Shown here: piece after piece, positions 44,268 to 63,373 of the stretch
Layout of the letters: each line of letters starts with the position of its first letter
Position numbering within the stretch: position 1 is the first letter of the stretch
Origin: Jannaschia pagri
GTDB taxonomy: Bacteria > Pseudomonadota > Alphaproteobacteria > Rhodobacterales > Rhodobacteraceae
Direction of reading: 5' to 3'
DNA length: 64,000 nucleotides
Assembly: GCF_019655435.1 (NCBI RefSeq)
Contig: NZ_BPFH01000001.1
Span: forward strand, 1 to 64,000
Notes under the pieces: generated by a model
Databases searched by the model: none
What the model saw: the letters and a program-made list of their open reading frames with translations, nothing else
Told to the model about the DNA's origin: nothing
Position numbers and translations under genes: made by a program

Positions 44268-45863
44268 ATGGCAGGCATCACGCGAAATGGCGGAAACGGT
44301 CCCGACAGCTTGGTCGGGACGCAGGATGACGACACCCTCCGTGGGAATGGTGGCGACGATACGCTGCGCGGCCTGGACGGCGCGGATTCGCTGGACGGCG
44401 GAAACGGAAATGACAGCATCGCCGGAGGGGATGGCGACGACACGCTCGACGGCGGCGACAACGACGACACCCTAAAGGGCGACGGCGGGGCCGATTCGAT
44501 TACCGGCGTGAACGGCGCCGACAGTATCTCTGGCGGCGCAGGCGACGACACGCTCAAGGGTGGCAGTCAGGACGACACCATTGGCGGCGGGGCCGACGAT
44601 GACAGCATCGAGGGCGGATCGGGCGACGACCTGATCGGTGGCGGCGCGGGCAATGACTCCCTGACCGGCGACGATGGAGAGGATACCATCTATGGCGAAG
44701 GTGGCGACGATTTCATCGACGAAAGTTTCGACGGCAGCCGCAATCGGTTGGACGGCGGCGACGGCCAAGACGCCATTCTCGGCGGCTCTCTCGAAGATAC
44801 CATTTGCGGCGGCGACGGCGACGACTTCATCGACGCGGGCACAGGCGGCGACCATGTGGACGGCGGCGCGGGCGACGACACGATCATTGCAGGCGGCGGC
44901 AGCGACTACGTCGACGGGGGAACCGGCGACGATAACATCACCTTCGGCGGCTACGACGGCGGCAATGACACCATCGCCTTCGATGTCGGGGGCGGCACGG
45001 ATACCGTTCTGGGTTGGAACCCGCAGGAAGACCTCATCCACATCGGTGACCTGACCCAGGATGACATCACACTCACCCAGGTCAGTCCGAAGATCTGGCA
45101 GATTAGCGTCGATGGGGGCGACCCGGACGATGTTCTGACCTTGGACTATGATTTCTTTTGGAACCAAAACCTGACTGAGGACGATCTGCGCGCCCGGATC
45201 CTGACCAGCGCCGATGAGCCGCGACCAGAGAAACCCGATGTGGCCGACCCGCCATGTTTCACGCCAGGGGTTCGGATCCTGACGACAGATGGGCTTGTAC
45301 GCGTGGAACATCTCATTCCCGGTCAGATGGTCGTGACCCGAGACCACGGCCCCCTGCCCTTGCAGCGGCTGCTGGAGACCACCATTGACCCAACCGTCAT
45401 GTCGGACATGCCCAACTTGCGACCGGTCGTGTTTCCGGCAGGGTCTATCGCGCCGGGCATCCCGCCGCGCCGCATGCGCGTGTCACCACAGCACGGCATC
45501 TTGCTGTCGTTGCCGAGTGGCCCTGCCGTGATCCGGGCGCGACACATCGTGGAGCACGCGAACATTGGCCACCGGCAACGGGCACCGTCCCAGCCGGTAC
45601 GCTATCTCCACCTGCTATTGGAGCGTCACGCGTTGGTGCAAGCGGACGGGATTTGGTCCGAGAGCTTTTATCCCGGCCCCCAAACTCTGTTCGGGCGCCG
45701 AATTCTTTCAGAGGTGACTGACCAAAAGCGGGACCCGCTGCCTTGGCCGTACTTGAAACGCCGTGACGTGCGCGCCTTGACCTCTTCGGACCTGCGACGC
45801 GCGCTGGGTGACGGGCTGACATCCGAGAACGATGACGCGACAGCCAGCTTGCAGCGCATCTAG
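44268..45863 (+). CDS. RTX calcium-binding protein with C-terminal Hint domain
   Basis: 531 residues. Residues about 8-245 are GGxGxDxL-type RTX repeats that fold on calcium outside the cell. From Cys330 (PCFTPGVRILTTDG) to about 500 is a Hint (Hedgehog/intein-like, Hint_2) domain with the later HGILLSLPSG-type histidine region. Hint domains can self-cleave; in this bacterial class the activity is untested. There is no signal peptide. RTX proteins normally leave by type I secretion, but no exporter genes are close. Confidence 0.88.
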   Translation: MAGITRNGGNGPDSLVGTQDDDTLRGNGGDDTLRGLDGADSLDGGNGNDSIAGGDGDDTLDGGDNDDTLKGDGGADSITGVNGADSISGGAGDDTLKGGSQDDTIGGGADDDSIEGGSGDDLIGGGAGNDSLTGDDGEDTIYGEGGDDFIDESFDGSRNRLDGGDGQDAILGGSLEDTICGGDGDDFIDAGTGGDHVDGGAGDDTIIAGGGSDYVDGGTGDDNITFGGYDGGNDTIAFDVGGGTDTVLGWNPQEDLIHIGDLTQDDITLTQVSPKIWQISVDGGDPDDVLTLDYDFFWNQNLTEDDLRARILTSADEPRPEKPDVADPPCFTPGVRILTTDGLVRVEHLIPGQMVVTRDHGPLPLQRLLETTIDPTVMSDMPNLRPVVFPAGSIAPGIPPRRMRVSPQHGILLSLPSGPAVIRARHIVEHANIGHRQRAPSQPVRYLHLLLERHALVQADGIWSESFYPGPQTLFGRRILSEVTDQKRDPLPWPYLKRRDVRALTSSDLRRALGDGLTSENDDATASLQRI

Positions 45864-46037: not shown

Positions 46038-46505
46038 TTAGGCCCAGAACTTCCAGAACGGCTTCTTTTCCGGTGCCGTGCCAGCCATCGCCGGGGCCGG
46101 GTAAGCCGCGTCTTTCATCACGCCAGAGAGCGTTCCATAGGCGGTGACCCAAGCCTCTTTGACTTCAGGGGTGAACCCATCGCCCAGACCCTTTTCCAAG
46201 GTGCGCAGCAGCGAGGCACCGACCTTGTCGTAGTCCTCGGCTTTCACGCCGTAGGCCACGTGACCCACGGCCAGCTTCTGCGCCACCGGCACAATCTTAT
46301 CGAGGTCGCGCAGACCGTTCACGACAACCGCCAGGGTGGCCATCAGCTTGGAGCCCTGTTCCGTCATGTCGCTGTTCTTGAAGTAGGGCTTCACCTCGGG
46401 CGAGGTTTCAAAGAGGTCGTTGTAGAAGATCTCGGCGGCGGCGTCCTTGATCGGCACAACCTTGGCAAAGCTTTCCTGCACGAGGACGATCTGCTGTTCG
46501 TTCAT
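46038..46505 (-). CDS. Single-domain globin
   Basis: 155 residues of the bacterial hemoglobin/flavohemoglobin globin type. The proximal His82 is in VGHVAYGV. Tyr28 sits at the B10 position and Gln50 at E7, the pair typical of NO-detoxifying and oxygen-binding globins. It lacks a reductase domain. It is the last gene of the redox operon, four bases after the cytochrome c gene (AAGGAA before its ATG). A role in NO or oxygen handling, with electrons from the operon's reductase or another, is inferred. Confidence 0.9.
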   Translation of the reverse strand: MNEQQIVLVQESFAKVVPIKDAAAEIFYNDLFETSPEVKPYFKNSDMTEQGSKLMATLAVVVNGLRDLDKIVPVAQKLAVGHVAYGVKAEDYDKVGASLLRTLEKGLGDGFTPEVKEAWVTAYGTLSGVMKDAAYPAPAMAGTAPEKKPFWKFWA

Positions 46506-46509
46506 AGTC

Positions 46510-46947
46510 TCATTCCTTTGGGATCTGTGTTTCCGCCCAGGCCAGCGCCGGGGAGTCTCCGCCGCTGGCCCAAATCATAAAGGCCACAGCCGCCTCGACC
46601 TCAGCATCGCTCAGGTCCGCGTTGCCGCCACGCGCGGGCATTTCGGCATATTTGGGCCCGATGAACCCATTGATCGCGTGATCAAAAAGCACATCGAGAC
46701 CTTGGTCTATTCGGGGCGCCCACACCTCGGTCGAGGTGATTTTGGGCGCGCCCGTCAGCTTGTTGCCCCCGTGGCAGTTCTGGCAGGTGTCGCCCCAAAC
46801 CGCGCGCCCGGCGGCCAGGGCCGCCACATCGGGCACGGGAAGGCGATCCAGGGTGACAAAGCCGTCCAACCCCTCGGGCGTGGCTTGCGCCAGCACCGAA
46901 GGGGCCATCAGGGTGGCCAGGGCCAGGGAGAAACAAGCCGTCCGCAT
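46510..46947 (-). CDS. Small periplasmic c-type cytochrome
   Basis: 145 residues. After a signal peptide (to about residue 21) there is one heme motif, CQNCH (55-59). The likely axial methionine is in YAEMPARGG, the pattern of cytochrome c5-like proteins. It would carry electrons in the periplasm. Its ATG follows the upstream DUF3365 stop by one base. Heme attachment would need the ccm genes. Confidence 0.88.
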   Translation of the reverse strand: MRTACFSLALATLMAPSVLAQATPEGLDGFVTLDRLPVPDVAALAAGRAVWGDTCQNCHGGNKLTGAPKITSTEVWAPRIDQGLDVLFDHAINGFIGPKYAEMPARGGNADLSDAEVEAAVAFMIWASGGDSPALAWAETQIPKE

Positions 46948-46948
46948 C

Positions 46949-47512
46949 TTACATCGGGATGCGGATCACGACGCCGCCCATGACGTCACCGGCTTTGAAG
47001 TCGGTCCGGGGCGTGTCCTTGTGGTCGTTGTGGCAAGCCCAGCAGGCTTCGGCCACGGCAATGTCAGGGTAGACGGCGGTGAAGTAGGTTTCGCCACCCA
47101 GCTCTTCTTCGCCATAGAAGTTCTCACCGGGGTTGGCGGCGATGTATTCCAGGCCCTCTTTCTCCATCGGAGTGGTCGGCGCGTTCTGCTTGTTGATCGG
47201 CCAGAGCGACAGCAGCGAGTAGGAGAACTCGTCGGTTTCCTCTGCCACCATCTCGGAGCCGAAGCGGAACATCTGGGCGGGCAGCACCAGGGCCTTGTCG
47301 TCCTCAAAGTGTTCGGAGGCTTTGATCACGCCTTCCTCGACCGCCAAACGGTTGACGATCATGCGCGTGTAGACCGTGCGGTCGGAGCTCATGACCAGGT
47401 GCAGAAGGTCGGTCACCGTCTCGTAGTCCATGCCGTCCGCCGAGGCCGAGCCGCCCAGGGCGACGCCCGCGCCCACGATAAGGGCTTTGACCTTTGCCAT
47501 TGGTGTCATCAT
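46949..47512 (-). CDS. DUF3365 (Tll0287-like) mono-heme protein
   Basis: 187 residues. A signal peptide precedes a PAS-like DUF3365 domain, with one heme motif CWACH (157-161) near the C-terminus. Family members are periplasmic c-type heme sensors or electron carriers. AGGAAA lies eight bases before the ATG at 47512, which is followed by further Met codons. It sits between the multiheme cytochrome and the small cytochrome c genes in one operon. Confidence 0.85.
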   Translation of the reverse strand: MMTPMAKVKALIVGAGVALGGSASADGMDYETVTDLLHLVMSSDRTVYTRMIVNRLAVEEGVIKASEHFEDDKALVLPAQMFRFGSEMVAEETDEFSYSLLSLWPINKQNAPTTPMEKEGLEYIAANPGENFYGEEELGGETYFTAVYPDIAVAEACWACHNDHKDTPRTDFKAGDVMGGVVIRIPM

Positions 47513-47561
47513 ATCTGTGTTTCCTGTCGCTCTTGCAGTTGCGGGAAGCGTGGCCAGCCGG

Positions 47562-49052
47562 TCATTGGTTGGAGCCTTGGTCCGGTTGGTCCACGCGTTT
47601 TACCGCCCAATCGATGCTTTCGATGTGGCGATCCGGGGTGCCCTGGAAGTTCCGCTGCACCAAGTCCGCGTCCGCCAAAGCGTCGATCGAGAATTCGAGG
47701 CTGTGACAGGACATGCAGACGGGGCGGATCATCTTCTCATTGGGGCGAAGGGTGTCGTTCTGGTTGTGGTTGGTCATCACTACGCCGCGCCGCTCGCTGG
47801 TGGACATGTGGCATGTGGCGCAGGTCACGCCCGACCCGGGCGGCAAGTCGCCAGCCATTTCGGCCAAGACCAGGTCATGGTGGGCGCTGTCCTCATAGGC
47901 GAGGCTGTGATCGTCGGAATGGCACGTCAGACAGGCGCCCGTGGAGGCAAAGGACAGATCCTGTTCGTGGGGCGCATGGCAGGTGGCGCAGGTCAGGTCG
48001 CGGCCCATGGCCTCGGCATGGAGGTCGACGCGGGCCTCGGAGGTGGACATGAGCGGCGCAGGCGCAGGATCGGCCAGATAGTCTTCGAGCGCAGAGACGA
48101 CCATTTCTGGCGGCTCTGACCAGCCCAGACGCTTAAGCATACGCTCCGGGTCACGGGGGTTGGCCAGTTCTGGGTGGCGGCGCATTCCGTGGCGGCCCAG
48201 AGCGAAGGTCTTGGCCTGGCCACGGTGGCAGGAGGCGCAAACCTGTTCCCCTGGCGCAGGCTCCCACGCAGCCTCAATCTCGGCCGGGGTTTCGGCGTCG
48301 GGCGCGTGGCATCCGCCACAGCCCACATCAGCGGCGGCATGGGCGGAGGCCGCCCAATGGGTGTCGGCCTCGGTGCCTTGGGCATCTTCTGGGGCGACGA
48401 TGGCTGCTAGATAGGTCTCAATCTCACTGGCATCTGCACGGGGACGGGCCCGGGCGATGACGCTGGGCGGATGGGTCGGATCATCGGCCAACCACGGCTC
48501 GCCCGCGTGTTTCACCAGGAAGTCCTCATAGAGCGCCTTGTTGTCGTGGTAGTTGTGGCACCCCGAAGAGGCACAGGTGTCAAAGGTCAAGCCCAGGTGC
48601 GACGGGCGGTTCACCCGCACGTCTTGCTCCCCTTCCGAATGGCAGGCCACGCAGTAGTCGCCGGGCAATGTCAGCAGACCGGCCTCGGTGATCTCCGGCT
48701 CATGCTCCGAATGGCAGGAGGTGCAGTACCGCGCGTCGATCCGGTCCCAGTAGGCCGCCATCCGCGGGTTCTTGAACTTCTTGATAGGGTGGCTGTCGTC
48801 CGCGGCCTTCAGCTCTTCTTTGTGGCAGGTCACGCAGGTCTTGTTCAGATCCTTGCGGATGGAGGCCTGATCTTCGAACGGCTCAGAGGTATGGCAAGTC
48901 TCACAAGAGACTTCGAACTGATGGTGCACGCCCGAGGTCTCACCCGGTTGAAAGACAGTGCGATCACCCCCCACGTAGAGCCGCGCCGACGCCGCAGCCG
49001 CAAGCCCCAGGGTAAGCGCAATCCAGAGGATCCAAAGCGTTCCGGTCTTCAT
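47562..49052 (-). CDS. Multiheme cytochrome c with ten CxxCH and one CX4CH motif
   Basis: 496 residues. After a signal peptide (about 1-23) I count CETCH, CVTCH, CTSCH, CVACH, CASSGCH, CGGCH, CASCH, CATCH, CLTCH, CATCH and CMSCH. That is ten standard motifs plus one CX4CH, so up to eleven hemes. The early motifs resemble cytochrome c3/NrfA-related carriers. The catalytic type is not recognisable: no CxxCK motif of NrfA is present. It probably receives electrons from the membrane reductase encoded 13 bases upstream and passes them to a periplasmic acceptor. Confidence 0.88.
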   Translation of the reverse strand: MKTGTLWILWIALTLGLAAAASARLYVGGDRTVFQPGETSGVHHQFEVSCETCHTSEPFEDQASIRKDLNKTCVTCHKEELKAADDSHPIKKFKNPRMAAYWDRIDARYCTSCHSEHEPEITEAGLLTLPGDYCVACHSEGEQDVRVNRPSHLGLTFDTCASSGCHNYHDNKALYEDFLVKHAGEPWLADDPTHPPSVIARARPRADASEIETYLAAIVAPEDAQGTEADTHWAASAHAAADVGCGGCHAPDAETPAEIEAAWEPAPGEQVCASCHRGQAKTFALGRHGMRRHPELANPRDPERMLKRLGWSEPPEMVVSALEDYLADPAPAPLMSTSEARVDLHAEAMGRDLTCATCHAPHEQDLSFASTGACLTCHSDDHSLAYEDSAHHDLVLAEMAGDLPPGSGVTCATCHMSTSERRGVVMTNHNQNDTLRPNEKMIRPVCMSCHSLEFSIDALADADLVQRNFQGTPDRHIESIDWAVKRVDQPDQGSNQ

Positions 49053-49065
49053 CGCCCTCGCCCCC

Positions 49066-51069
49066 TCAGTACGCGTATGACGCTAAAACGTGGATGAGCA
49101 GCAGCACCGGCAACGGCCAGAGCAGCAGGATATGGGCCCAAGTCGGCATCTTGCGGGGTGGATTGCGGGTCGTCCCAATCCGACGCGCCCGCAGTTCGTG
49201 GTCTGCCCCCGTGGCCACACCGGCAACCGCACCAGTCAGCAAGGTGCCCAAAGCCACCACACCAAGCGCGAGGTTCCAGCCGGAGCCCAGGCTGAACCCC
49301 GTATGGGCGAAGAAGCCCGCAACCGCGCTCAACCCCACCACGTTGTGAACAAGACGCCAGCCATCAAAGCTGCCCAGACGATCAAACAGACGGATCCGCT
49401 TGCGCAGCCCGATGGCCAAGGCCGCCACGAAGATACCGACCAGGATGTAGCCGGACCACTGCTTGACGATATTGTCGCGCCACAGCCAGTCGCGCAGGCT
49501 ATCGGCGTCGTAGCTGGTTGGCAGCGGGACGTTCCCAACGAACAGGGGATACAGCCCCACCAACAAAGCAACCAACGACAGGGCCAGAACCGGCTTCCAC
49601 AGCGGCACAGGCTCTGGGTCGGCGCCGGCGTCAATCATCTCGGCCAGAATGGGACGGCAGGTGCCACAGACGCTGCCAGCGGTGGTGACCGCCGATAGAT
49701 CGGGGACGGTGCCCGCCCCCTGGGCAATCGCCTGGCGCAACTGTCCCGCCGTCACGCCCGTGCAATTGCAGACCGTCGCAGAGTCGGCCATGGCCTCGGC
49801 AGAGGCGTCGCTTTCGGCCCAGAGGTGCCCGTTCGCGCGAAAGCGAAACACCATCCAGGGTTGAACGGTCGCGCCCTGCCCCACGGCATCCTGCACGCGG
49901 CTCGCATCGCGCCAGCCCCCGACAGCGATCGCGCCGACCAAGCGGCCCCGCTGAATAAAGATCCGCCGGTAGCTGTCGCCTTCGCTCCAACTATGGGAGC
50001 GGACGCCGACCCGAGCTTCGAGCTGTTCCACGTCACCGGCCGAGAACACCTCCGCGCCGATGACCTTGAGCTTTGTCGCCGGGGTCCGCGCCTCGAAGGC
50101 ATCGATCCCCCCGGTCACGGTGGTCGCAGCCACCTCCGCTTGGGACAGGCCTGGCCCGACCAGACCATACAACTGGCCCTCATGTTCCGCGCATTCCCCG
50201 ACAGCAAAAATATCGGGGTCGCTGGTCCGCATGTGATCGTCGACCGTGATGCCACGCCCAAAGGCCAGCCCCGCATCCCGCGCGAGGTCGATGTTTGGGC
50301 GGATACCGGTGCAGATCACGACGGTATCGCAGTCCAACGTACTGCCATCGGCAAAGGCCAGGCCCGAGACCCGTTCCGCCCCGGTGATTTCGCGCACGGC
50401 CACGCCGGTCCGCACCTCGACGCCCATCTCGGACACGCGGGCCGCAAGCCGATCCCCACCGGCCTGGTCCAACTGGCGCGGCATGAGCCGGCTTTCGTGT
50501 TCCACCACCGTGACGGCGCACCCGCGCAGGGCCATCCCCCGCGCCGCTTCCAACCCAAGCAGACCGCCGCCGATCACCGCGACGCGGCGGGCAGAAAAGC
50601 TGCGGGCGAGCAATGCCGACGCGTCATCGGCACTGCGGAAGCGATAGACACCGGTGCGATGACGGCCCGGGATGTTGGGCACGAAGGCTCGGGAGCCCGT
50701 CGCCAGAACCAACTTGTGATAGGGCCAAACGGCTCCGGTGGCGGTCACGACCTGCCGGGCCTCGCGATCAATTCGGACGATCCGCTGGCCGAGCGCCAGG
50801 TGCCCTTCCTCTCCGGAGGATGCCAAGGCAGGCAGCGCGATGTCCCCGAACTGAGCCTCTCCGGCCAGGAGTGGCGTCAGTTGGACCCGATTATAAGGAT
50901 CTACCGTCTCGTCGGTCAGGACAATCGCCCTTTGGCCAAGGCGTGCAAGGGACTGAGCCGTCCGGATCCCCACGGGGCCACCGCCGACGATGACGATACC
51001 GTCATCTTGCGAAACCCGATCTGGGACATGCCCGTGTTGGGCGACAGCTGGGCTGGCAACTGGGGACAA
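49066..51069 (-). CDS. NirB-like FAD/[2Fe-2S] oxidoreductase fused to a diheme-b-like membrane domain
   Basis: About 667 residues from a TTG at 51069 preceded by AAAGGAGAG; the ATG at 51177 has no ribosome site. Residues about 22-420 are a pyridine-nucleotide-disulfide oxidoreductase with two dinucleotide folds (IVIVGGGPVGIRTA, VAVIGGGLLGLEAA). A BFD-type [2Fe-2S] site follows: Cys434, 436, 468, 471. The C-terminal ~175 residues have about five membrane helices. Two carry His-X13-His pairs (His575/His589, His646/His660), the spacing for two stacked b hemes. It probably moves electrons from cytoplasmic NAD(P)H into the membrane. It lacks the siroheme half of NirB. Confidence 0.85.
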   Translation of the reverse strand: MSPVASPAVAQHGHVPDRVSQDDGIVIVGGGPVGIRTAQSLARLGQRAIVLTDETVDPYNRVQLTPLLAGEAQFGDIALPALASSGEEGHLALGQRIVRIDREARQVVTATGAVWPYHKLVLATGSRAFVPNIPGRHRTGVYRFRSADDASALLARSFSARRVAVIGGGLLGLEAARGMALRGCAVTVVEHESRLMPRQLDQAGGDRLAARVSEMGVEVRTGVAVREITGAERVSGLAFADGSTLDCDTVVICTGIRPNIDLARDAGLAFGRGITVDDHMRTSDPDIFAVGECAEHEGQLYGLVGPGLSQAEVAATTVTGGIDAFEARTPATKLKVIGAEVFSAGDVEQLEARVGVRSHSWSEGDSYRRIFIQRGRLVGAIAVGGWRDASRVQDAVGQGATVQPWMVFRFRANGHLWAESDASAEAMADSATVCNCTGVTAGQLRQAIAQGAGTVPDLSAVTTAGSVCGTCRPILAEMIDAGADPEPVPLWKPVLALSLVALLVGLYPLFVGNVPLPTSYDADSLRDWLWRDNIVKQWSGYILVGIFVAALAIGLRKRIRLFDRLGSFDGWRLVHNVVGLSAVAGFFAHTGFSLGSGWNLALGVVALGTLLTGAVAGVATGADHELRARRIGTTRNPPRKMPTWAHILLLWPLPVLLLIHVLASYAY

Positions 51070-51186
51070 AGGACCTCTCCTTTCACGGGGAAACCCCGAT
51101 CCGACGAGCGCCTTTGCCCAAAAATGCGACTTGCGAGAGCACCCCGTTGCATCCCCCGCGTCCCCAGGATTGTGCATGTGCAGAAT

Positions 51187-51288: not shown

Positions 51289-51324
51289 AAAAACGGCCGC
51301 AGTGCGCTTAGTGCAATGCGGCCG
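51289..51324 (-). terminator. Terminator of the serralysin-like gene
   Basis: On the minus strand an eight-base stem CGGCCGCA/TGCGGCCG, extended by GC-rich inner pairs, is followed by TTTTT. It lies about 45 bases after the stop and separates this gene from the redox operon. Confidence 0.85.
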
Positions 51325-51366: not shown

Positions 51367-53967
51367 TCAGAGGATGAAATCTCCAACCTCCGCACCGCCG
51401 ACAATGTAGATTTGACCATTGGCGACGCCGTCACCTCGGGTGTCGAACGAGGCGATGGTGACCGCCTGCCCCGACAGCGTGTAGTCGTTCAAGATCATCT
51501 GCCCCCCGCGACCAGTGAACACGCTGCCGCCAAAGGTGAAGGTCTGGTTGCCCGACAACCACACATTCGCGTCCATGGCCGACAGATCGATCACGTCACC
51601 CTCTGCAGCGTCGAAATCACGGATCTCATCGCGGCGCCACCGCCCCACACCCGTATGCGCGACGCTGGTAAAGACAAAGCGGTCCGCGTCCGCGCCGCCC
51701 GTCAGAAAGTCCACGCCGTCGCCGCCCCCCAGGGTGTCGCGCCCAGCGCCGCCGAGCAAACGGTCCACGTCATCACCGCCTTGCAACAGATCATGGCCCT
51801 CACCACCCAACAGCGTGTCGCGCCCATCCAGACCGTAGATCCTGTCATTGCCCAAGCTGCCTTCGAGCCGGTTGCCGTGGGCATGGGTGCCATAGATCAG
51901 ATCGGCGTGGCCTGACCCAAAGGCATGTTCGATCCGCGACAGCCGGTCCGTCCCTCCGCCACCGGTGGCGGTGCCCGCTTGCAGATTGACCTGCACCCCC
52001 GCGCTATGACCCGTGTAGAGCACCATGTCGAAGTTCGTGCCGCCATCCAGTGTGTCGTCGCCCGCGCCCCCGCGCAGCGTATCGGCATAGCTGCCACCGC
52101 TTAGCCTGTCGTCGCCGTCATCGCCTTCCAGCCTGTCGCTGCCGCTGTCCCCGTTGAGCGTGTCATCGCCGCGTCCACCGCGGAGCGTATCGTTGTCGGC
52201 ACCCCCCGTGAGCAGATCGTCGCCATCCCGCCCCAATAGACTGTCGTTTCCGGCGCCCCCGTCCAGATCATCATCGTCATTGATCAGCGCGATTTCCTGC
52301 CGGGCTCCGGCAGAAATTGCCTGGAGCGCCGTGCCGCCTTCGAGATCGGGGATCGGGCCACGGTTTGCGTCGGGCACCCAGTAGTTCACCAGATCCGGAT
52401 CCGATGTGCTGGCCAGGTCGCTGATATCCCGCGCGGCCACCTCCACGCTGCTGAGGGCCTTGTCGTAGACCGCGATCGGACCGAAATCGCCCTCGAACAG
52501 CGCGTTTCCACTGGACGTCCAGACGCCCTGACTGTCGCCGAACACCAGCTTGCCGCCAGAGGTGAAGCCCGTGCCAGCCTCATAGGTCGTCGACCGCTTT
52601 TCGACCCCGTCCAGGTACAGCGTCATCATACCGGTCGAGGCGTCCCGCGTGATGGTCAGCCTGTGCGCCTGTCCGTCGGCCAGGTCACTGGCATAGAGCC
52701 CTGTCCAAGCCGTCGTGTATCCGCCCGACCGCGGTACGATAAAGAACAGCGCGTTCGATCCGGTGCTGTCGAACAATTGCAACTCCAGGATCGGGTCGCC
52801 GGATCCGTCGGGATCGTAGGACACGATCCGTTGCAAATGGTTCACGTTGGCGTCGAACTTCAGAACCATGTCGATCGTGACGCTGCCGGGCATGGCGTAG
52901 TTGTCGATCTCCAGCCTCCGCGCGGGACTGGTGCTGTCGTTCATCTCTGCCAGGATCACAGTGGGCACCGGCTGCCCTGGTCCGGCCCCGTCCAGAGTGT
53001 CGTTCCCCGCGCCGCCACGGATGGTGTCGTTGCCCAGACCACCCCGCAACAGATTGGCGGCCCCATTGCCCGTCAGACTGTCATCTCCGATGCCTGCGAC
53101 GCCCTCCTCGATGGTGACGCCAAAGGCAATGTTCAAACCACCACCCGCGCGCGTCACATCACCGTCGCCATCGCGGACGACGTCCCAAAGCGAGACATAG
53201 CCGCCCCCGCCGACCTCCACTTGGAGGGTCGCTGCCCGCAGGTCTAGGATGCTGTCGCCCGTGATGCCGGACAGGTCGATGCGGTCGGTCCCGCCAGCGT
53301 CCCAGATGGTGTAGAACGAGCTGTCGAAAGACACCCCGGGCACGTAAGTCGTATCGCCCGCCTCATGGGTCTGGTTCGCCCCAAAAATCGCCTGCAAGGC
53401 CGCGATGTCGAACGGCGCGAGGTCTTCGGGATAGAGAAACCGCAGATCAGGATGCTCGGTCGGGGTACCGGTGCGGTAGGCCATGACGGTGTAGAAATTG
53501 CTGTTGAAGCCAAACTGCCCTGGATCGTAGGTACTGCCCACGCCGGGCAGCTTGGTCCCGTCGAACGGATGGTCCAGCGCCATCACGTGGCCCAACTCGT
53601 GGGTCAGCAGGCCGATGCTATCCGATCCGACCACAAACGTGCCAGACGTGCCCGCATAGCCGCCCCAGCCCCCTGGGACGGAGTCCACCATTTCCAGTCG
53701 GATGTCAGAACTGCCGTAGGGAACCTCCGTAAAGGTCATACCGGCGACTTCGCTGAAACGGGCCACGACGTCTCGGAAGTTGGCCTTTTCCTCGTTCGTC
53801 CAAGCGCGGGTGAAATCGGAGCCGCCCTCGTACCCTGCCTTCGTCGTGGGATTGCCCGCTGGCACGAAGGCATAGGTGTAGCTCGATTTCGTGGGATTGA
53901 AGCCGTAGGACAGCGACCCCAGCAAGGGATGGTTGATGTTGTCGATGTTTGTTGCGCCCACGGACAT
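51367..53967 (-). CDS. Serralysin-like RTX metalloprotease with LamG-like insert
   Basis: 866 residues. The N-terminal domain has HELGHVMALDHP (His123, Glu124, His127, His133), the zinc site of matrixin/serralysin peptidases, and the Met-turn YTVMAYRTG. RTX repeats begin near 300, are interrupted by a concanavalin/LamG-like domain at about 335-530, then continue. The last ~170 residues end in DGVANGQIYIVGG and DFIL, a likely type I secretion end shared with the next gene. There is no signal peptide. It would be secreted and calcium-stabilised and would cut extracellular protein. A strong terminator follows it. Confidence 0.9.
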   Translation of the reverse strand: MSVGATNIDNINHPLLGSLSYGFNPTKSSYTYAFVPAGNPTTKAGYEGGSDFTRAWTNEEKANFRDVVARFSEVAGMTFTEVPYGSSDIRLEMVDSVPGGWGGYAGTSGTFVVGSDSIGLLTHELGHVMALDHPFDGTKLPGVGSTYDPGQFGFNSNFYTVMAYRTGTPTEHPDLRFLYPEDLAPFDIAALQAIFGANQTHEAGDTTYVPGVSFDSSFYTIWDAGGTDRIDLSGITGDSILDLRAATLQVEVGGGGYVSLWDVVRDGDGDVTRAGGGLNIAFGVTIEEGVAGIGDDSLTGNGAANLLRGGLGNDTIRGGAGNDTLDGAGPGQPVPTVILAEMNDSTSPARRLEIDNYAMPGSVTIDMVLKFDANVNHLQRIVSYDPDGSGDPILELQLFDSTGSNALFFIVPRSGGYTTAWTGLYASDLADGQAHRLTITRDASTGMMTLYLDGVEKRSTTYEAGTGFTSGGKLVFGDSQGVWTSSGNALFEGDFGPIAVYDKALSSVEVAARDISDLASTSDPDLVNYWVPDANRGPIPDLEGGTALQAISAGARQEIALINDDDDLDGGAGNDSLLGRDGDDLLTGGADNDTLRGGRGDDTLNGDSGSDRLEGDDGDDRLSGGSYADTLRGGAGDDTLDGGTNFDMVLYTGHSAGVQVNLQAGTATGGGGTDRLSRIEHAFGSGHADLIYGTHAHGNRLEGSLGNDRIYGLDGRDTLLGGEGHDLLQGGDDVDRLLGGAGRDTLGGGDGVDFLTGGADADRFVFTSVAHTGVGRWRRDEIRDFDAAEGDVIDLSAMDANVWLSGNQTFTFGGSVFTGRGGQMILNDYTLSGQAVTIASFDTRGDGVANGQIYIVGGAEVGDFIL

Positions 53968-54169: not shown

Positions 54170-57100
54170 CTACAAAATGAAGTCGCTGATGTCCGCCCCG
54201 CCCACGATGTAGATTTGACCATCGGCCAACCCGTTGCCGCGCACATCCAAGGACGCAATGGTCACGTCCACACCGCTGATCACAAAGTCATTGAGGATGA
54301 TCTCACCACCCGTGCTGGTGAAGCTTGTCCCGGCAAAGGTGAAGGCCTGGTTGCCCGCGTTGAACACATTGGCATCCATCACAGACAGGTCGATCATATC
54401 GCCATCGACGCTGTTGAAATCACGGATCTCATCCCGTCGGAACCGCCCGACGCCGGTGTCGTTGATGTTGCCAAACTCAAAGGTATCGGCCCCCGCACCA
54501 CCCGTCAGGAAGTCGACGCCACCACCGCCGTTCAGCGTGTCGTTCTGATTTCCACCCAGCAAGCGGTCCACGTCATCGCCGCCAAACAGGACATCTTCGC
54601 TGTTGCCGCCCAGGAGGGTGTCCCGGCCATCGAGGCCGTAGATCGTGTCGTCCCCGGACGACCCCTCGAGACGGTTGCCATGGGCATTAGTGCCGAAGAT
54701 CTCGTCACCTGCGGCAGAGCCGAAGACATTCTCGATATTGCGAATGGTGTCCGTCCCGGCGCCGCCGGTGGCCGTTCCCGCCTCCAGGTTGACCTGCACG
54801 GCCGCGAAGATCCCAGTGAACAGGACCGTGTCGAAGTTTGTCCCACCGTCGAGCGTGTCGTCCCCGAGCCCAGCGAGCAACGTATCGGCAAAGGTGCCGC
54901 CTGACAGGCTGTCGCTGCCATCGCCACCGTCCAAGCGGTCCGCGCCGGACCCACCGATCAGCGTATCGGAATCCGCCCCGCCGCTCAGCGTGTCGCTGCC
55001 CGCACCGCCGTCCAGGGTGTCGTTATGCGTGCCCCCTTCCAACACGTCGTTCTCGGTGCCGCCGTTCAGTTCATCGGACCCGCTTCCGCCCTTCAGCGTG
55101 TCGTCACCGCCATCGCCAAAGAGTTTGTCGTCGCCGCCGTTGCCCTCCAGGCTGTCGGCATCGGCGCCGCCCTCCAGTCGGTCACGGTCCGCGCCGCCAA
55201 ACAGGCTGTCTTCGCCTTCGTCGCCAAACAGACTGTCGTCTCCGCTGAGCCCATAGAGCTTGTCATCGCCGCGTTTGCCTTCCAGCACGTTCGCGATGCT
55301 GTTGGAGCCGAACACCGTATCATCGCGGTTCGATCCGATGACATCCTCGATACTAACCAGGGTATCGGTGCCCAAAAGCATCCCGCTGGCGGTTTCGTTT
55401 TCCAGGTTGACCGAAACCCCTTCGGGAATGAACAGGAACGATACAACGTCGGAGTTTTCGCGGCCATCGAGACTGTCATCTCCGCTGCTGGCGAAGAAAA
55501 AGTCGTCACCCCTGCCACCGATCAGCGTATCGTCGCCACCCCGCCCGGCCAGTGTGTCGTCGCCATCGTCACCAAACAGCCGGTTCGCGCTAAAGGCGCT
55601 GCCGGACAGGACGTCGTTGAACGCGGAGCCATCGACGTTCTCGATGGAGATCAGGCTATCGTTGCCTTCGCCCGTGGCCGTCCCCGCGTCGAGATCCACC
55701 GTGACACCCATGGTGGCGTTGGTGAACCGCGCCGTGTCACGATCCGCCCCGCCATCCAGCGTGTCGTCGCCAGCTAAGCCGATCAGCGTGTCATCCCCAG
55801 CGCCGCCGGTCAGCGTGTTGCCATGGATCGCGGTGCCGGTGATCTTGTCGTTGCCGCTGCTTCCGGTGGCATGCTCGAACTGCTCGACGACAGTCACCGT
55901 GCTGCTGCCACTGCGGACGGCTGTCCCCGCCTGAAGATCAATGTCGAAATCGGAAATGGCCGCGCTGAAGTCCACGAGGTCAAAGTTCGACCCGCCGTAG
56001 ATGTAGGACGCGCTCGTCAGCGAGTCATGCAACATGACCGTGTCCCGACCGCTGCCACCGTCCACGGTATCGCCCGTCGCGTTCCCAATTATCAGGTCGT
56101 TCCCGCCCCGTCCGTTCAGGATATTGGCACCGAAATCGCCGGTTATGGTGTCGTTTCCGTTGCCACCATCGACGTCTTCGATCCCGATCAGGGTGTCGCT
56201 GCCTTCGCCCGTGGCCGTCCCAAGCAGCAGATCAATGTTTAGGTCCGCTGTCGCGTTGGAGAAATCCGCGAGGTCGTAATAGCGGGTTGTGGTCGAAATA
56301 CCCCCGACCATGACGACACGGTCGCCGCCACCTTCGAGCGTATCGTCGTCCGGTCCGCCCAGAAGGGTGTCATTGCCGTAGCCGCCGAACAGCTCGTCCG
56401 AACCGCTGCCGCCCACAACAACATCAGCGCCATCATTGCCACGGATGGTGTCGTCTCCACCGCGTCCGCGCAGGGTGTCGTTGCCGCCCAAGCCGATGAT
56501 CAACTCGCCGGCATTGGTTCCCGTAAAGTCATCGTTGATCGACCCCTGACCGACGAAGGCGGTCGTATCAATGCCCGATGGATTAATTTCACCGTCGCTA
56601 TACCCGTCCATCTGGTCCAGGTACGACCATCGTTCAGCATCCCCGCCAGAGATTACGCGGCTGGGCGCGCCGGGGTTGTAGGTTCTGCTCAGACCGCTCA
56701 GCACGATATCGGCAAAGCCGTCTCCGTTGATATCGCCGCCGTCGACCTCCACCGCGGAGATATCGAAGTTGCCGTAGCCAAAGGCGCCGAGGTTGATGCG
56801 GTATCCGGTGGAGGGCGTGAGGCCTGAAACCTCGACAAGCTCGGTCGGTGTGATCGCCGATCCAAAGATGACGTTCAGTGTGACATCATAGGCCGAATAC
56901 GTGGCGCCACTGTAGCTGGTCAGCTGCTGGGCGACCGTTGATTGGCTGAAGACACCTATGTCGTCGAGGCCGTCGCCATTGACGTCGCCAATCGCCGCGG
57001 CCTTGCTGCCGATCGCGTCTTCGCCGTCCATCAGGGTTGCACCGTCCCCAACCACAAACCCAAGCGCGGACCCCAGGTCGTCTCGGTCCATGATCCCCGT

Positions 57101-58582
57101 GAAGCCGTCGGCATTGCCGAGGACCACGTACACTTGCCCCGTTGCGCGCGTATACGTGTTCGTCCGGGTTATGATGTTCGTGTACTGCTGGCGCGTGTAG
57201 CTGCCGCCGTAGGATGTATAGGTGTAGGTCCCTTCTCCCTTGAAGTATCTCCCGCCGGGTTGCGGGACGTAGCGATAGCTATACGTCGTCGTCTGGTAGG
57301 TCTGATAGGTCCGGCTGTTGGCCCCTTCGGCCCCGATGGCAAAATCGCCAAACCCGTCTCCGTTGATGTCACCAAGCGCCGCAACCGACGACCCGACGCG
57401 ATCACCACGCTCGAGGCCTTGGAAGATGATCCCGTTGGTGGCGTTGATCTGGGACGTTGCCAGTGAACTGGTCATCGGATCGCCAAAGACGATATAAGCG
57501 CGACCAACTTCGAACTGCGTATACAGGTAGTCCGTGCCGGGGCCGGTGTAAGTGCCGCCTCCGGTGTACGTTCCACCTCCGGTGTAGGTACCGCCGCCAC
57601 CATATGAGGTCCGGATTTCTACAAAGTTGTAACCTGCGGCGCCGACGATCAGGTCGTCCTTACCGTCACTGTTGAAATCGCTGCCGAAATCGACCGCTTG
57701 GCCGAACCCAGTCGGGTTTCGGTAATAATCATAACCGGTATCGTAGAAACCGAAACCATTGTTGTAGTAGTACTTTTGCCCAGCGGACCGGAACGTAAAG
57801 TCGATTGGCAGCGCTTCTAGCGATGCAGACCCGCCAAGAACCGTGACTTGGCCGGCTCCAGGCTCTCGATAGGTTCTCGTGTACGTGTTGAACGTCGTGT
57901 AAGGGATCCCGTCCCTCGTGTAGGTGATCGCATTTGTATACGTGTTATACGAAATCGAAACCGGACCATATGGCTGCGCCACGACAATATCGTCAAACCC
58001 ATCCCCATCGAAGTCCCCGGACCCAATAACCATATTACTCGGCGGTATACCGAGGGCGCTGATTTCCGCATCCGTCAAAACGGCCGCCGCATCCTCATCG
58101 ATGGTGATCTCTGCGCCCGGTTGGTCGCTGCCCAGGATGACAAACGACAATTCCTGCGTGCTGTCGCCCGACACGGCGATATCGTCATAGCCATCGCCGT
58201 TGATATCGCCGAGCCCGCGAACTTCCCGCCCAACGCTGACGAAGCCGGTCAGCGATTCAAAACCGCGTTCTCGCCGCTGGATAAGAACTCCGTCGTCTGC
58301 TGCGAGGCTGGACAGATCAATATCTTCCGGCAAGCCATTGGGATCGCCAAAAACGATCGCGGCCTTCCCCAATTCGGACAAATAGGTCGCGGAGGTATAA
58401 GGTGCTCCACCGGGCGTGTACAAAACATATCCGCCTGCGATCACAGCGGCGCGGGTATCCCCCACCAGGAAGTCATCATAGCCATCACCGTTAAAATCGC
58501 CGATGAGGCTGACACTCTTGCCAAAATCCGACAAAGGCCCGGTGACGCCAGACCCCGTGACACGTGTCGCAATCAAAGGCAT
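54170..58582 (-). CDS. Giant RTX protein with seven FG-GAP repeats (integrin-like propeller)
   Basis: 1470 residues. Seven DxNxDGxxD calcium loops of FG-GAP type start near residues 29, 126, 190, 302, 405, 533 and 617, enough for one seven-bladed beta-propeller. Most blades carry Tyr/Thr/Gly-rich loops: residues about 204-240, 326-356 and 424-482 are the longest. From about 680 the protein is RTX repeats. The last ~210 residues resemble the end of the neighbouring protease and stop with DFIL, a likely type I secretion signal. GTGGAG precedes the ATG. It is probably a secreted adhesin or matrix protein; the ligand is unknown. Confidence 0.88.
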   Translation of the reverse strand: MPLIATRVTGSGVTGPLSDFGKSVSLIGDFNGDGYDDFLVGDTRAAVIAGGYVLYTPGGAPYTSATYLSELGKAAIVFGDPNGLPEDIDLSSLAADDGVLIQRRERGFESLTGFVSVGREVRGLGDINGDGYDDIAVSGDSTQELSFVILGSDQPGAEITIDEDAAAVLTDAEISALGIPPSNMVIGSGDFDGDGFDDIVVAQPYGPVSISYNTYTNAITYTRDGIPYTTFNTYTRTYREPGAGQVTVLGGSASLEALPIDFTFRSAGQKYYYNNGFGFYDTGYDYYRNPTGFGQAVDFGSDFNSDGKDDLIVGAAGYNFVEIRTSYGGGGTYTGGGTYTGGGTYTGPGTDYLYTQFEVGRAYIVFGDPMTSSLATSQINATNGIIFQGLERGDRVGSSVAALGDINGDGFGDFAIGAEGANSRTYQTYQTTTYSYRYVPQPGGRYFKGEGTYTYTSYGGSYTRQQYTNIITRTNTYTRATGQVYVVLGNADGFTGIMDRDDLGSALGFVVGDGATLMDGEDAIGSKAAAIGDVNGDGLDDIGVFSQSTVAQQLTSYSGATYSAYDVTLNVIFGSAITPTELVEVSGLTPSTGYRINLGAFGYGNFDISAVEVDGGDINGDGFADIVLSGLSRTYNPGAPSRVISGGDAERWSYLDQMDGYSDGEINPSGIDTTAFVGQGSINDDFTGTNAGELIIGLGGNDTLRGRGGDDTIRGNDGADVVVGGSGSDELFGGYGNDTLLGGPDDDTLEGGGDRVVMVGGISTTTRYYDLADFSNATADLNIDLLLGTATGEGSDTLIGIEDVDGGNGNDTITGDFGANILNGRGGNDLIIGNATGDTVDGGSGRDTVMLHDSLTSASYIYGGSNFDLVDFSAAISDFDIDLQAGTAVRSGSSTVTVVEQFEHATGSSGNDKITGTAIHGNTLTGGAGDDTLIGLAGDDTLDGGADRDTARFTNATMGVTVDLDAGTATGEGNDSLISIENVDGSAFNDVLSGSAFSANRLFGDDGDDTLAGRGGDDTLIGGRGDDFFFASSGDDSLDGRENSDVVSFLFIPEGVSVNLENETASGMLLGTDTLVSIEDVIGSNRDDTVFGSNSIANVLEGKRGDDKLYGLSGDDSLFGDEGEDSLFGGADRDRLEGGADADSLEGNGGDDKLFGDGGDDTLKGGSGSDELNGGTENDVLEGGTHNDTLDGGAGSDTLSGGADSDTLIGGSGADRLDGGDGSDSLSGGTFADTLLAGLGDDTLDGGTNFDTVLFTGIFAAVQVNLEAGTATGGAGTDTIRNIENVFGSAAGDEIFGTNAHGNRLEGSSGDDTIYGLDGRDTLLGGNSEDVLFGGDDVDRLLGGNQNDTLNGGGGVDFLTGGAGADTFEFGNINDTGVGRFRRDEIRDFNSVDGDMIDLSVMDANVFNAGNQAFTFAGTSFTSTGGEIILNDFVISGVDVTIASLDVRGNGLADGQIYIVGGADISDFIL
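57545..57598 (-). repeat. 18-base tandem repeat, three units, coding for GGGTYT
   Basis: Three imperfect copies of an 18-base unit encode GGGTYT-GGGTYT-GGGTYT on the minus strand inside one propeller blade loop of the FG-GAP/RTX protein. Synonymous differences between copies suggest it is not a very recent expansion. Confidence 0.8.
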
Positions 58583-61249: not shown

Positions 61250-63373
61250 ATGACGAGTTTCAATATTCTTTCGACCACATCCATTCAGCGCTCGCTGACG
61301 GGCAGCGAACATGGGTTCATCGCCCAGGGCGTCGGGATCATCGCGACCGAGCCGGTGGCCAATGCGACACCCGGCGTCACAATCAAGGGCACAACCAACA
61401 CCCTGACCGTACTTGGATTTATCAACAACGGCACGGATTCGTCCGTATCCTTCGAAGACGCGAACGGCGCCTTTGTGACAATCGGCAGCAGCGGGTCGGT
61501 GACCAGCGGAGCGGTCGCAGCCGCAGCTCTGTCTGGCACATTCGTCGGAAACGGCATTCGTATGACCAACGCCGGTCTGATCTCCAACGGTCTTGGAAAC
61601 GGTGTCCTGTTGACCGCCGTAAACGGGTCAACGTCGGTGGTTGATATCTTCAACACCACGACCGGTATCCTCCAGGGAGCGTTCACAGGTCTTGAGCTCA
61701 ACCCGCGCTTCTCGCGCGCGAACGTTGTGAACGACGGCCTCATCACAGGCGGCGTTACAGGCGTAAATCTGACCTACACCGAGTTCGCGACCAGCACGCA
61801 GACGGTCAACAACAGCGGTGACATCGTCGGTGGACAAACCGGTCTGTTCATAACGGCTTCGTTCATCACGCCGCTAAAGGTGACAAACACGGGGGTCATA
61901 AGCGGCGGCCAGTCCGGGGCTGCGATCACCTCCCGCGGGACGATAGAGTTCGTGAACTCTGGTACCCTGAGCGGCAGCGCCAACAGCCTTACCCTGGAGG
62001 GCGCGCGCGGGAACGCGACGATCCTCAACAGCGGGAATCTGGTGGGGGATGTGCAGCTCGGGTCCGGCGCCGATGTCTTCGATACGCGCGGCGGCACGGT
62101 CACGGGCACCGTCAACCTGGGGGACGGGGCCGACACAGTCCTTCTCGACGACGCCAGCGTGACCCTCGTCGGCGGGGGCGGCGTGGATTTGGTCAGATCA
62201 TGGGTCGGCTACCATATGCGAACTAGTGATTTGGAGCAGCTGGTGCTCGAAGGCACGGAGGACCTGAAAGGCGCGGGGAACAGCGGCAACAACGTGATCA
62301 CCGGGAATGTCGGTGACAACGCCTTGTTTGGCTTTGCTGGGAACGACACGCTGCTGGGGCAAGAAGGCAATGACAAGTTGTTTGGCAGCGCCGGAGTCGA
62401 CAATGTTTCGGGCGGTGATGGTGACGACTGGATCCACGGCGGTGCGGACCGAGACGTCTTGCAAGGCGGGTCAGGAAACGACCTGATCCAAGGCGGAACC
62501 GGAGACGACGTGCTTGACGGTGGCGAAGGGCGCAACACACTCGAAGGCGGGGTGGGCGATGATATCATCATCGCGGGCGTAGATGCTGAAACGATTCACG
62601 GCGGCCAGGGCGAGGATCTCATCAGTTTCGCCGGCTCCCTCTCCCGCGTGGTCGTCAACATCGGTGTCAATTTCACGTCCGGCGGCGCGGCAGAAGGCGA
62701 TGTCATCTCCGGGTTTGAACAACTGGTTGGCTCAAACTTCGACGATGTCCTCGTAGGATCCAGCGGCAACAACGTGATCAGTGGACAGAGGGGGGCAGAC
62801 CGCCTCCGGGGGGAGGCAGGCGAAGACTCCCTGACCGGCGGGGCTGGCGCCGATACGCTGGACGGCGGCACTGGCGCGGATCTGGTCAGCTATCAGTTTT
62901 CCCAAGCACGGGTCATCGTGAACCTGGAGACAGGCTTCACCAGTGGCGGGGATGCCGCCGGGGACGTGCTGATTTCTATCGAGCGGGCGGAGGGCTCGAA
63001 CCTAAACGACCGGATTGTCGGATCCACCGACGGCAATCGCTTGTTCGGCTTGGATGGCGAGGACTACCTGGACGGCGCAGCAGGAAGCGACATCATAGAG
63101 GGCGGCCGGGGCAACGACGACCTCCTGGGGGGCGCAGGCGCCGATAGGTTTGTCTTTGGGCTTTTTTCCGGGAACGACCGCATTTTGGATTTCGAGGACG
63201 GCTCGGATATCATCGACCTGCGTCCCTATAACGTGCTGCAGTTCTCGGACCTTGCCCTCTCCGTCGATGACGACGACCTGCTTATCAATATAGGCGGGTT
63301 TGGCACGTCCATCCGGCTGGTGTCCGAAAACGGTCAGACGGTCCTAACCGAGGCAGATTTTCTCTTCAGCTAG
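61250..63373 (+). CDS. RTX protein with beta-helix-like N-terminal repeats
   Basis: 707 residues. Residues about 50-290 consist of Asn/Gly/Thr-rich repeats (NSGTLSGSANSLTLEG, then NSGNLVGDVQLGSGADV) likely to form a beta-helix. From about 340 to 640 there are several blocks of GGxGxDxL RTX repeats. The C-terminal ~65 residues are a plausible type I secretion end. There is no signal peptide. It is probably an extracellular calcium-binding adhesin or surface layer protein. Confidence 0.85.
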   Translation: MTSFNILSTTSIQRSLTGSEHGFIAQGVGIIATEPVANATPGVTIKGTTNTLTVLGFINNGTDSSVSFEDANGAFVTIGSSGSVTSGAVAAAALSGTFVGNGIRMTNAGLISNGLGNGVLLTAVNGSTSVVDIFNTTTGILQGAFTGLELNPRFSRANVVNDGLITGGVTGVNLTYTEFATSTQTVNNSGDIVGGQTGLFITASFITPLKVTNTGVISGGQSGAAITSRGTIEFVNSGTLSGSANSLTLEGARGNATILNSGNLVGDVQLGSGADVFDTRGGTVTGTVNLGDGADTVLLDDASVTLVGGGGVDLVRSWVGYHMRTSDLEQLVLEGTEDLKGAGNSGNNVITGNVGDNALFGFAGNDTLLGQEGNDKLFGSAGVDNVSGGDGDDWIHGGADRDVLQGGSGNDLIQGGTGDDVLDGGEGRNTLEGGVGDDIIIAGVDAETIHGGQGEDLISFAGSLSRVVVNIGVNFTSGGAAEGDVISGFEQLVGSNFDDVLVGSSGNNVISGQRGADRLRGEAGEDSLTGGAGADTLDGGTGADLVSYQFSQARVIVNLETGFTSGGDAAGDVLISIERAEGSNLNDRIVGSTDGNRLFGLDGEDYLDGAAGSDIIEGGRGNDDLLGGAGADRFVFGLFSGNDRILDFEDGSDIIDLRPYNVLQFSDLALSVDDDDLLINIGGFGTSIRLVSENGQTVLTEADFLFS

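Follow-up and report, generated by a model that had tools for sequence, protein, structure and literature searches.

What would a bacterium gain from an operon that places a membrane reductase, an undecahaem cytochrome, a DUF3365 haem protein, a small cytochrome c and a globin in a single row? The question is raised by the first 64,000 nucleotides of a contig of Jannaschia pagri (hereafter the window), for which an initial annotation described five genes on one strand, separated from reductase to globin by gaps of 13, 49, 1 and 4 bases, and proposed a respiratory or detoxifying system for nitrogen oxides or another electron acceptor. The layout agrees with our check of the open reading frames, all five of which lie on the minus strand (Table 1), and each product has a family match: Pyr_redox_2, Rubredoxin_C and Fer2_BFD in the reductase, Cytochrom_c3_2/C7 in the multihaem protein, and Tll0287-like (DUF3365), Cytochrome_CBB3 and Globin in the remaining three. 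An in-frame ATG is present at 51177, upstream of the TTG to which we assign the start of the reductase, and translation from it would cross the leader hairpin discussed below. Judged from its sequence, the terminator-like hairpin of the upstream RTX gene sets that gene apart from the operon. An Rfam search of the operon region matched no known RNA family.

Table 1 Features of the operon and its leader in the window
Feature	Position	Strand	Remarks
Globin gene, single-domain	46038..46505	-	Tyr-B10, Gln-E7, His-F8
Mono-haem cytochrome c gene	46510..46947	-	Signal peptide
Stand-alone DUF3365/Tll0287 (sCache_heme) c-haem protein gene	46949..47512	-	Periplasmic, without axial Cys
11-haem c-type cytochrome gene	47562..49052	-	N-terminal membrane anchor
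Reductase gene	49066..51069	-	TTG start; ORF and domain searches
NasT/ANTAR-type hexaloop hairpin gggcAAAGGCgctc	51106..51119	-	37 nt upstream of reductase start
Possible first (P1) hairpin of ANTAR pair	51139..51150	-	Stem of 3 pairs only, weak
Intrinsic-terminator-like hairpin of upstream RTX gene	51289..51324	-	Stem 51294-51324, T run 51289-51293

Around the operon lie four genes for large calcium-binding proteins with RTX repeats, at positions 44268-45863, 51367-53967, 54170-58582 and 61250-63373 of the window. Reading by eye, we recognise a serralysin-like metallopeptidase domain at the start of the protein encoded at 51367-53967 and a Hint-like domain at the end of that encoded at 44268-45863.

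Related loci, of which we assembled 57 (26 from named genome contigs and 31 regions from genome searches), span Alpha- and Gammaproteobacteria, Lentisphaerae and others. In 48 of them the genes for the reductase, the multihaem protein and the DUF3365 protein (hereafter the trio) are adjacent and in the same order, with several of the exceptions situated at contig ends. Such conservation is not what chance would give; the operon of the initial annotation is upheld, and the condition it named as refuting, that the genes rarely occur together elsewhere, is not borne out. Cytochrome c and globin are common additions after the trio, present in many loci, and some relatives possess a truncated haemoglobin and a ferredoxin-reductase-like gene in their stead. 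Three loci (L037, L039, L093) carry a truncated haemoglobin followed by a 2Fe-2S/FAD/NAD reductase (~330 aa) in place of the single-domain globin, a pair that looks like a two-protein NO dioxygenase. Pairwise distances between the proteins are correlated (Mantel r 0.66-0.88, with no permutation as high), as expected if the operon proteins travel as a unit, with shared species history adding to the correlation. Of the genomes sampled, 13 of 395 in the family (Rhodobacteraceae) and 27 of 369 in Gammaproteobacteria have the system; carriage on plasmids was considered and rejected, given that tblastn found no match in the plasmid collection. Two gammaproteobacterial genomes, G778 (L030, L060) and G968 (L094, L110), each hold two copies of the 11-haem gene on separate contigs, and in G778 one copy adjoins nasT-nrtABC while the other does not. 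Searches of the open-licence literature by family and pathway names returned no description of the trio system.

The reductase is composed of a NirB-like FAD/NAD domain, a Rubredoxin_C-like domain, a BFD [2Fe-2S] domain and then a C-terminal domain of four transmembrane helices (4-TM), so that its likeness to NirB is limited to the N-terminal two thirds. Its score against the NirB model TIGR02374 is 389 bits, below the NirB cut-off of 578, and our domain search yielded no match to the NIR_SIR (sirohaem/4Fe-4S) domain. Across an alignment of 55 homologues, the BFD cysteines (434, 436, 468 and 471) and two H-x13-H pairs in the 4-TM domain (His575/589 and His646/660) are conserved in at least 51 sequences, and from these pairs, together with established knowledge of membrane b-type cytochromes, we predict two b haems across the membrane. 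A single hydrophobic helix lies at the N terminus of the multihaem protein, and in many relatives no cleavage site is evident for it; at the lipoprotein-signal position, a cysteine is common among relatives of the DUF3365 protein. These features suggest that both parts lie on the periplasmic side, with the globin predicted to lie in the cytoplasm. The path from NAD(P)H to periplasmic haems that had been proposed for the operon is borne out, at the level of sequence, by the cofactor ligands (BFD cysteines and H-x13-H pairs) and the predicted compartments, and we consider it likely that the operon moves NAD(P)H electrons to the periplasm.

If electrons do arrive there, the 11-haem protein is where they would be expected to enter. 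It possesses ten CxxCH motifs and one CX4CH motif (CASSGCH), and the same eleven motifs recur in every full-length homologue listed. Neither the window protein nor any of these full-length homologues contains CxxCK, the motif of the catalytic haem of NrfA, and the 11-haem protein is consequently not NrfA. Profile searches nevertheless relate it to NrfA, octahaem nitrite reductase and hydroxylamine oxidoreductase (HAO), with E ~1e-9 to 1e-10, and the predicted fold of residues ~216-472 has HAO, hydrazine dehydrogenase, NrfA and octahaem reductase as its top matches, all of this superfamily and all weak (best Z 6.5 and 6.1). Foldseek against the PDB gave nothing significant with either model of the protein, and a second look with VIA gave Z ~6 only. 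While Z ~6 is weak by itself, the profile result agrees with it, and the two support the view that the C-terminal residues ~216-472 are related to the HAO/NrfA/octahaem nitrite reductase superfamily, as judged from sequence and model. The first AlphaFold model was poor in residues 25-174; with 49 sequences the mean pLDDT rose from 64.5 to 78.5, and residues 119-132 and 164-174 (the CX4CH region) stayed below 50. The statement of the initial annotation that no known catalytic subunit is present must be qualified, because the C-terminal half is itself related to this superfamily of enzymes.

Where a catalytic site might be sought within this protein is suggested by its conserved residues. In the profile alignment, which is local and weak, the position of HAO haem 4 (P460) has no CxxCH counterpart. 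Eleven histidines outside the motifs are conserved, ten invariantly and His362 nearly so, and with eleven such residues for eleven haems every haem could be bis-His ligated. Known enzymes of the HAO/NrfA superfamily also keep an active-site histidine, so the count of distal histidines does not distinguish an enzyme from a wire. The best-conserved stretches outside the motifs are CHNYHDNxALYEDFL, which follows the CX4CH haem, and HNQNxxLRPNEKMIR, which precedes the last haem; both contain many polar residues and may be regarded as candidate active-site regions.

The DUF3365 protein matches PF11845 (E 2.5e-20), has its haem motif CWACH at residues 157-161, and gave no phmmer match in the PDB. 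The stand-alone members of this family characterised to date are Cys/His-ligated and show weak NO binding; tight NO binding is described for a signalling-linked member that lacks the axial cysteine (PMC12889525). Among 56 homologues of the operon protein we find no conserved cysteine outside CxxCH and the signal/lipobox region, which suggests that the haem may be open to NO or may use another ligand. The globin is a single-domain protein of the flavohaemoglobin-like (FHb-like) kind, without a reductase domain. Its Tyr28 (B10), Gln50 (E7) and His82 (F8) are invariant in 30 homologues, in keeping with the gas-binding role first assigned to it.

A clue to when the operon is expressed comes from its leader. 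The hairpins recognised by ANTAR proteins carry a hexanucleotide loop whose first base is A and whose fourth is G (PMC3369931), and the window hairpin conforms to this hexaloop A1/G4 rule. An exact copy of GRGCAAHGNNGCTC is found three times in the 3.9-Mb genome: in the window leader, ahead of nrtA in the nasS-nrtA leader, and in antisense orientation within the coding region of an amidohydrolase gene. A reversed control pattern occurs six times, so the number of copies is in itself unexceptional, and it is their places that are exceptional. Each of the 11 full-length leaders from related Rhodobacterales that we searched contains the hexaloop hairpin. Over all loci it occurs in 30 of 50 leaders, compared with 64 of 864 random segments drawn as controls from these loci (Fisher p ~2e-19); L023, counted among the 30, is a short-contig artefact, making 29 of 49 the safer count, and the 20 leaders with no strict hairpin include some from nas-linked loci. 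Several relatives show two hairpins, whereas the window leader has a P1 stem of three pairs and no clear terminator overlapping the hairpin. Folding of the whole leader reveals no excess stability (z 0.71), leaving the short hairpin to carry the claim. In Paracoccus there is experimental precedent for NasT acting with leader hairpins (PMC5424462). Taking the leaders together, NasT control of the trio has good support across the group; for the window operon such control is probable.

The genomic surroundings of the trio point in the same direction. One or more of nasT, nrtABC, nirBD, nasA or narK occurs within ~10 kb of the trio in 19 of the 57 loci, representative neighbours having been checked by HMM (ANTAR, NMT1_2, nitrate permease and ATPase, NIR_SIR, NirD), and one locus (L103) reads nasT, globin, reductase, multihaem, DUF3365, nrtABC, nirB, nasA. 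NirB is present in all 13 trio-bearing genomes of the family, as against 81 of 210 sampled genomes without the trio (Fisher p ~8e-6); of the 30 trio genomes searched, 29 have it and one, a MAG, does not. NrfA and NirK (copper nitrite reductase) are each found in two of the 30. The link to nitrogen oxides that had been suspected is thus sustained through the nas setting, and with the electron path it is well supported by the sequence comparisons; it is very probable that the operon is an accessory of nitrate assimilation. The same counts, with the NasT-type leader hairpin, do not favour the respiratory half of the original proposal. Two further candidates were rejected: the operon as a replacement for NirB, as trio genomes have NirB, and a link to denitrification or NrfA-type nitrite ammonification, as NirK and NrfA are each confined to two of the 30 trio genomes.

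The window genome has a nas locus of its own (C1:394-414 kb) comprising nasT, nrtABC, globin, nirB and nasA. Within it (L055, C1:394001-414000) the globin gene lies between nrtC and nirB, and its product is 68% identical to the operon globin; a nas-linked globin can thus accompany the 11-haem module here or stand apart from it. A porin family of OprD/alginate-export-like type recurs beside the trio or the nrt genes (L030, L031, L032, L036, L037, L038, L095, L099), and may be a nitrate porin.

We propose the following role for the operon. Antitermination by NasT in the leader would turn it on together with the nas genes. The reductase would take NAD(P)H electrons in the cytoplasm and pass them through FAD and the BFD-type [2Fe-2S] centre to the two predicted membrane b haems, and at the outer face of the membrane they would enter the anchored 11-haem cytochrome, for which the DUF3365 protein and the small cytochrome c would serve as periplasmic partners. 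The chain would then most likely reduce reactive nitrogen compounds that arise or escape as nitrate is assimilated; the probable site is the HAO/NrfA-like half of the 11-haem cytochrome, and NO in the cytoplasm would be removed by the globin. As the substrate we infer nitrite, NO or hydroxylamine, reduction of which would fit the way the operon is regulated, the presence of the globin and the DUF3365 protein, and the superfamily of the cytochrome; we likewise infer NasT binding, the direction of electron flow, the catalytic site and the product. Of the initial proposals, a detoxifying role is the one we favour, and we give roughly even chances to the full reading, in which an accessory module of nitrate assimilation reduces one of these compounds and its globin clears cytoplasmic NO.

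Several alternative hypotheses may account for the same genes. The chief rival holds that the operon is an electron wire, carrying NAD(P)H electrons via the 11-haem protein to a periplasmic, outer-membrane or extracellular acceptor needed during growth on nitrate; one example would be ferric iron, to supply nas enzymes that are rich in haem and Fe-S. The presence of exactly 11 conserved candidate distal histidines for 11 haems agrees with this, as do the weak fold matches to the 11-haem protein, which include OcwA and the S-layer undecahaem cytochrome, and the porin gene that often adjoins the trio; however, no MtrB-type outer-membrane conduit was recognised among the recurrent neighbours, and the OprD/alginate-export-like porins may simply admit nitrate; we regard a wire as rather unlikely. 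A similarly low likelihood attaches to a second, periplasmic assimilatory nitrite reductase, whose 11-haem protein would make ammonium from nitrite for nitrogen acquisition rather than detoxification. Such an enzyme would suit the nas linkage, the leader hairpin, the built-in NAD(P)H donor and the relatedness to HAO, NrfA and octahaem nitrite reductase (ONR), yet nitrite assimilation is already covered by NirB in 29 of the 30 trio genomes examined, and no vacant catalytic haem is evident from the conserved histidines.

Less probable by a wide step is respiration, anaerobic or at low oxygen, with a nitrogen oxide or another acceptor, as originally proposed, which the combination of multihaem cytochrome, NADH reductase and globin, together with DUF3365, might suggest. 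Against it stand the assimilatory setting (NirB, nas loci and leader hairpin), the lack of NrfA and NirK in most trio genomes, and an entry of NAD(P)H electrons that would bypass the quinone pool with no sign of energy conservation. We give least credence of all to redox or NO sensing, whereby the DUF3365 protein and cytochromes would report periplasmic redox state or NO and the chain would keep the sensor reduced. The tight NO binding of the signalling-linked DUF3365 member without axial cysteine (PMC12889525), a residue not conserved in the 56 homologues here either, speaks for this reading, but nasT excepted, no signal-transduction module is fused to the proteins or recurs alongside them, and an 11-haem protein with an NADH reductase would be heavy equipment for a sensor.

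Accounts of nitrate assimilation in bacteria place the pathway in the cytoplasm. A conserved and apparently NasT-controlled chain, taking NAD(P)H electrons to a periplasmic 11-haem cytochrome in several bacterial groups, would add a compartment to it, and probably a reaction. It would also help to explain how nitrate-assimilating bacteria deal with nitrite and NO, which would bear on the release of nitrite and NO/N2O in the sea. A bolder version of our preferred reading, which we hold to be possible though doubtful, is that nitrate assimilation has a periplasmic arm, in which the transmembrane reductase and the 11-haem enzyme convert nitrite or NO to ammonium under the same NasT control as the cytoplasmic enzymes. 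Were this true, the arm would occur in ~3% of the Rhodobacteraceae and 7% of the gammaproteobacterial genomes sampled, and would include an N-oxide reductase of a new type whose active site is unusual. For the system as a whole the genes and the regulator can be named, and hosts exist in culture, among them Actibacterium, Thalassococcus halodurans, Hahella ganghwensis and Catenovulum agarivorans.

Several parts of the operon have known counterparts from which they depart. NirB shares the N-terminal FAD/NAD, Rubredoxin_C-like and BFD [2Fe-2S] domains of the reductase, but continues into a sirohaem NIR_SIR half where the operon reductase instead has its 4-TM domain with two H-x13-H pairs. HAO, octahaem nitrite reductase and NrfA resemble the 11-haem protein over its C-terminal ~250 residues (E ~1e-9 to 1e-10; Z ~6), whereas the operon protein has 11 haems and a conserved N-terminal five-haem part that includes the CX4CH haem, and differs from HAO and NrfA in having neither CxxCK nor, in the alignment, a P460-type haem position. 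Stand-alone DUF3365/Tll0287 (sCache_heme) proteins are, like that of the operon, periplasmic with a single c haem on CxxCH; the one from P. putida is Cys/His-ligated, unlike the operon protein and its homologues, which resemble the NO-binding protein of P. azotoformans in being without the axial cysteine (PMC12889525). The closest parallel to the system as a whole is the narK-bjgb-flp-nasC cluster of Bradyrhizobium, which couples nitrate assimilation to NO removal and, much as proposed here, pairs a single-domain globin with a flavoprotein that uses NAD(P)H, both within the nas regulon; it is under NasS-NasT control and protects against NO arising from nitrate assimilation (PMC4724949). That system is cytoplasmic, whereas in the present one a separate operon encodes a membrane-spanning reductase and an 11-haem cytochrome that would extend the chain to the periplasm.
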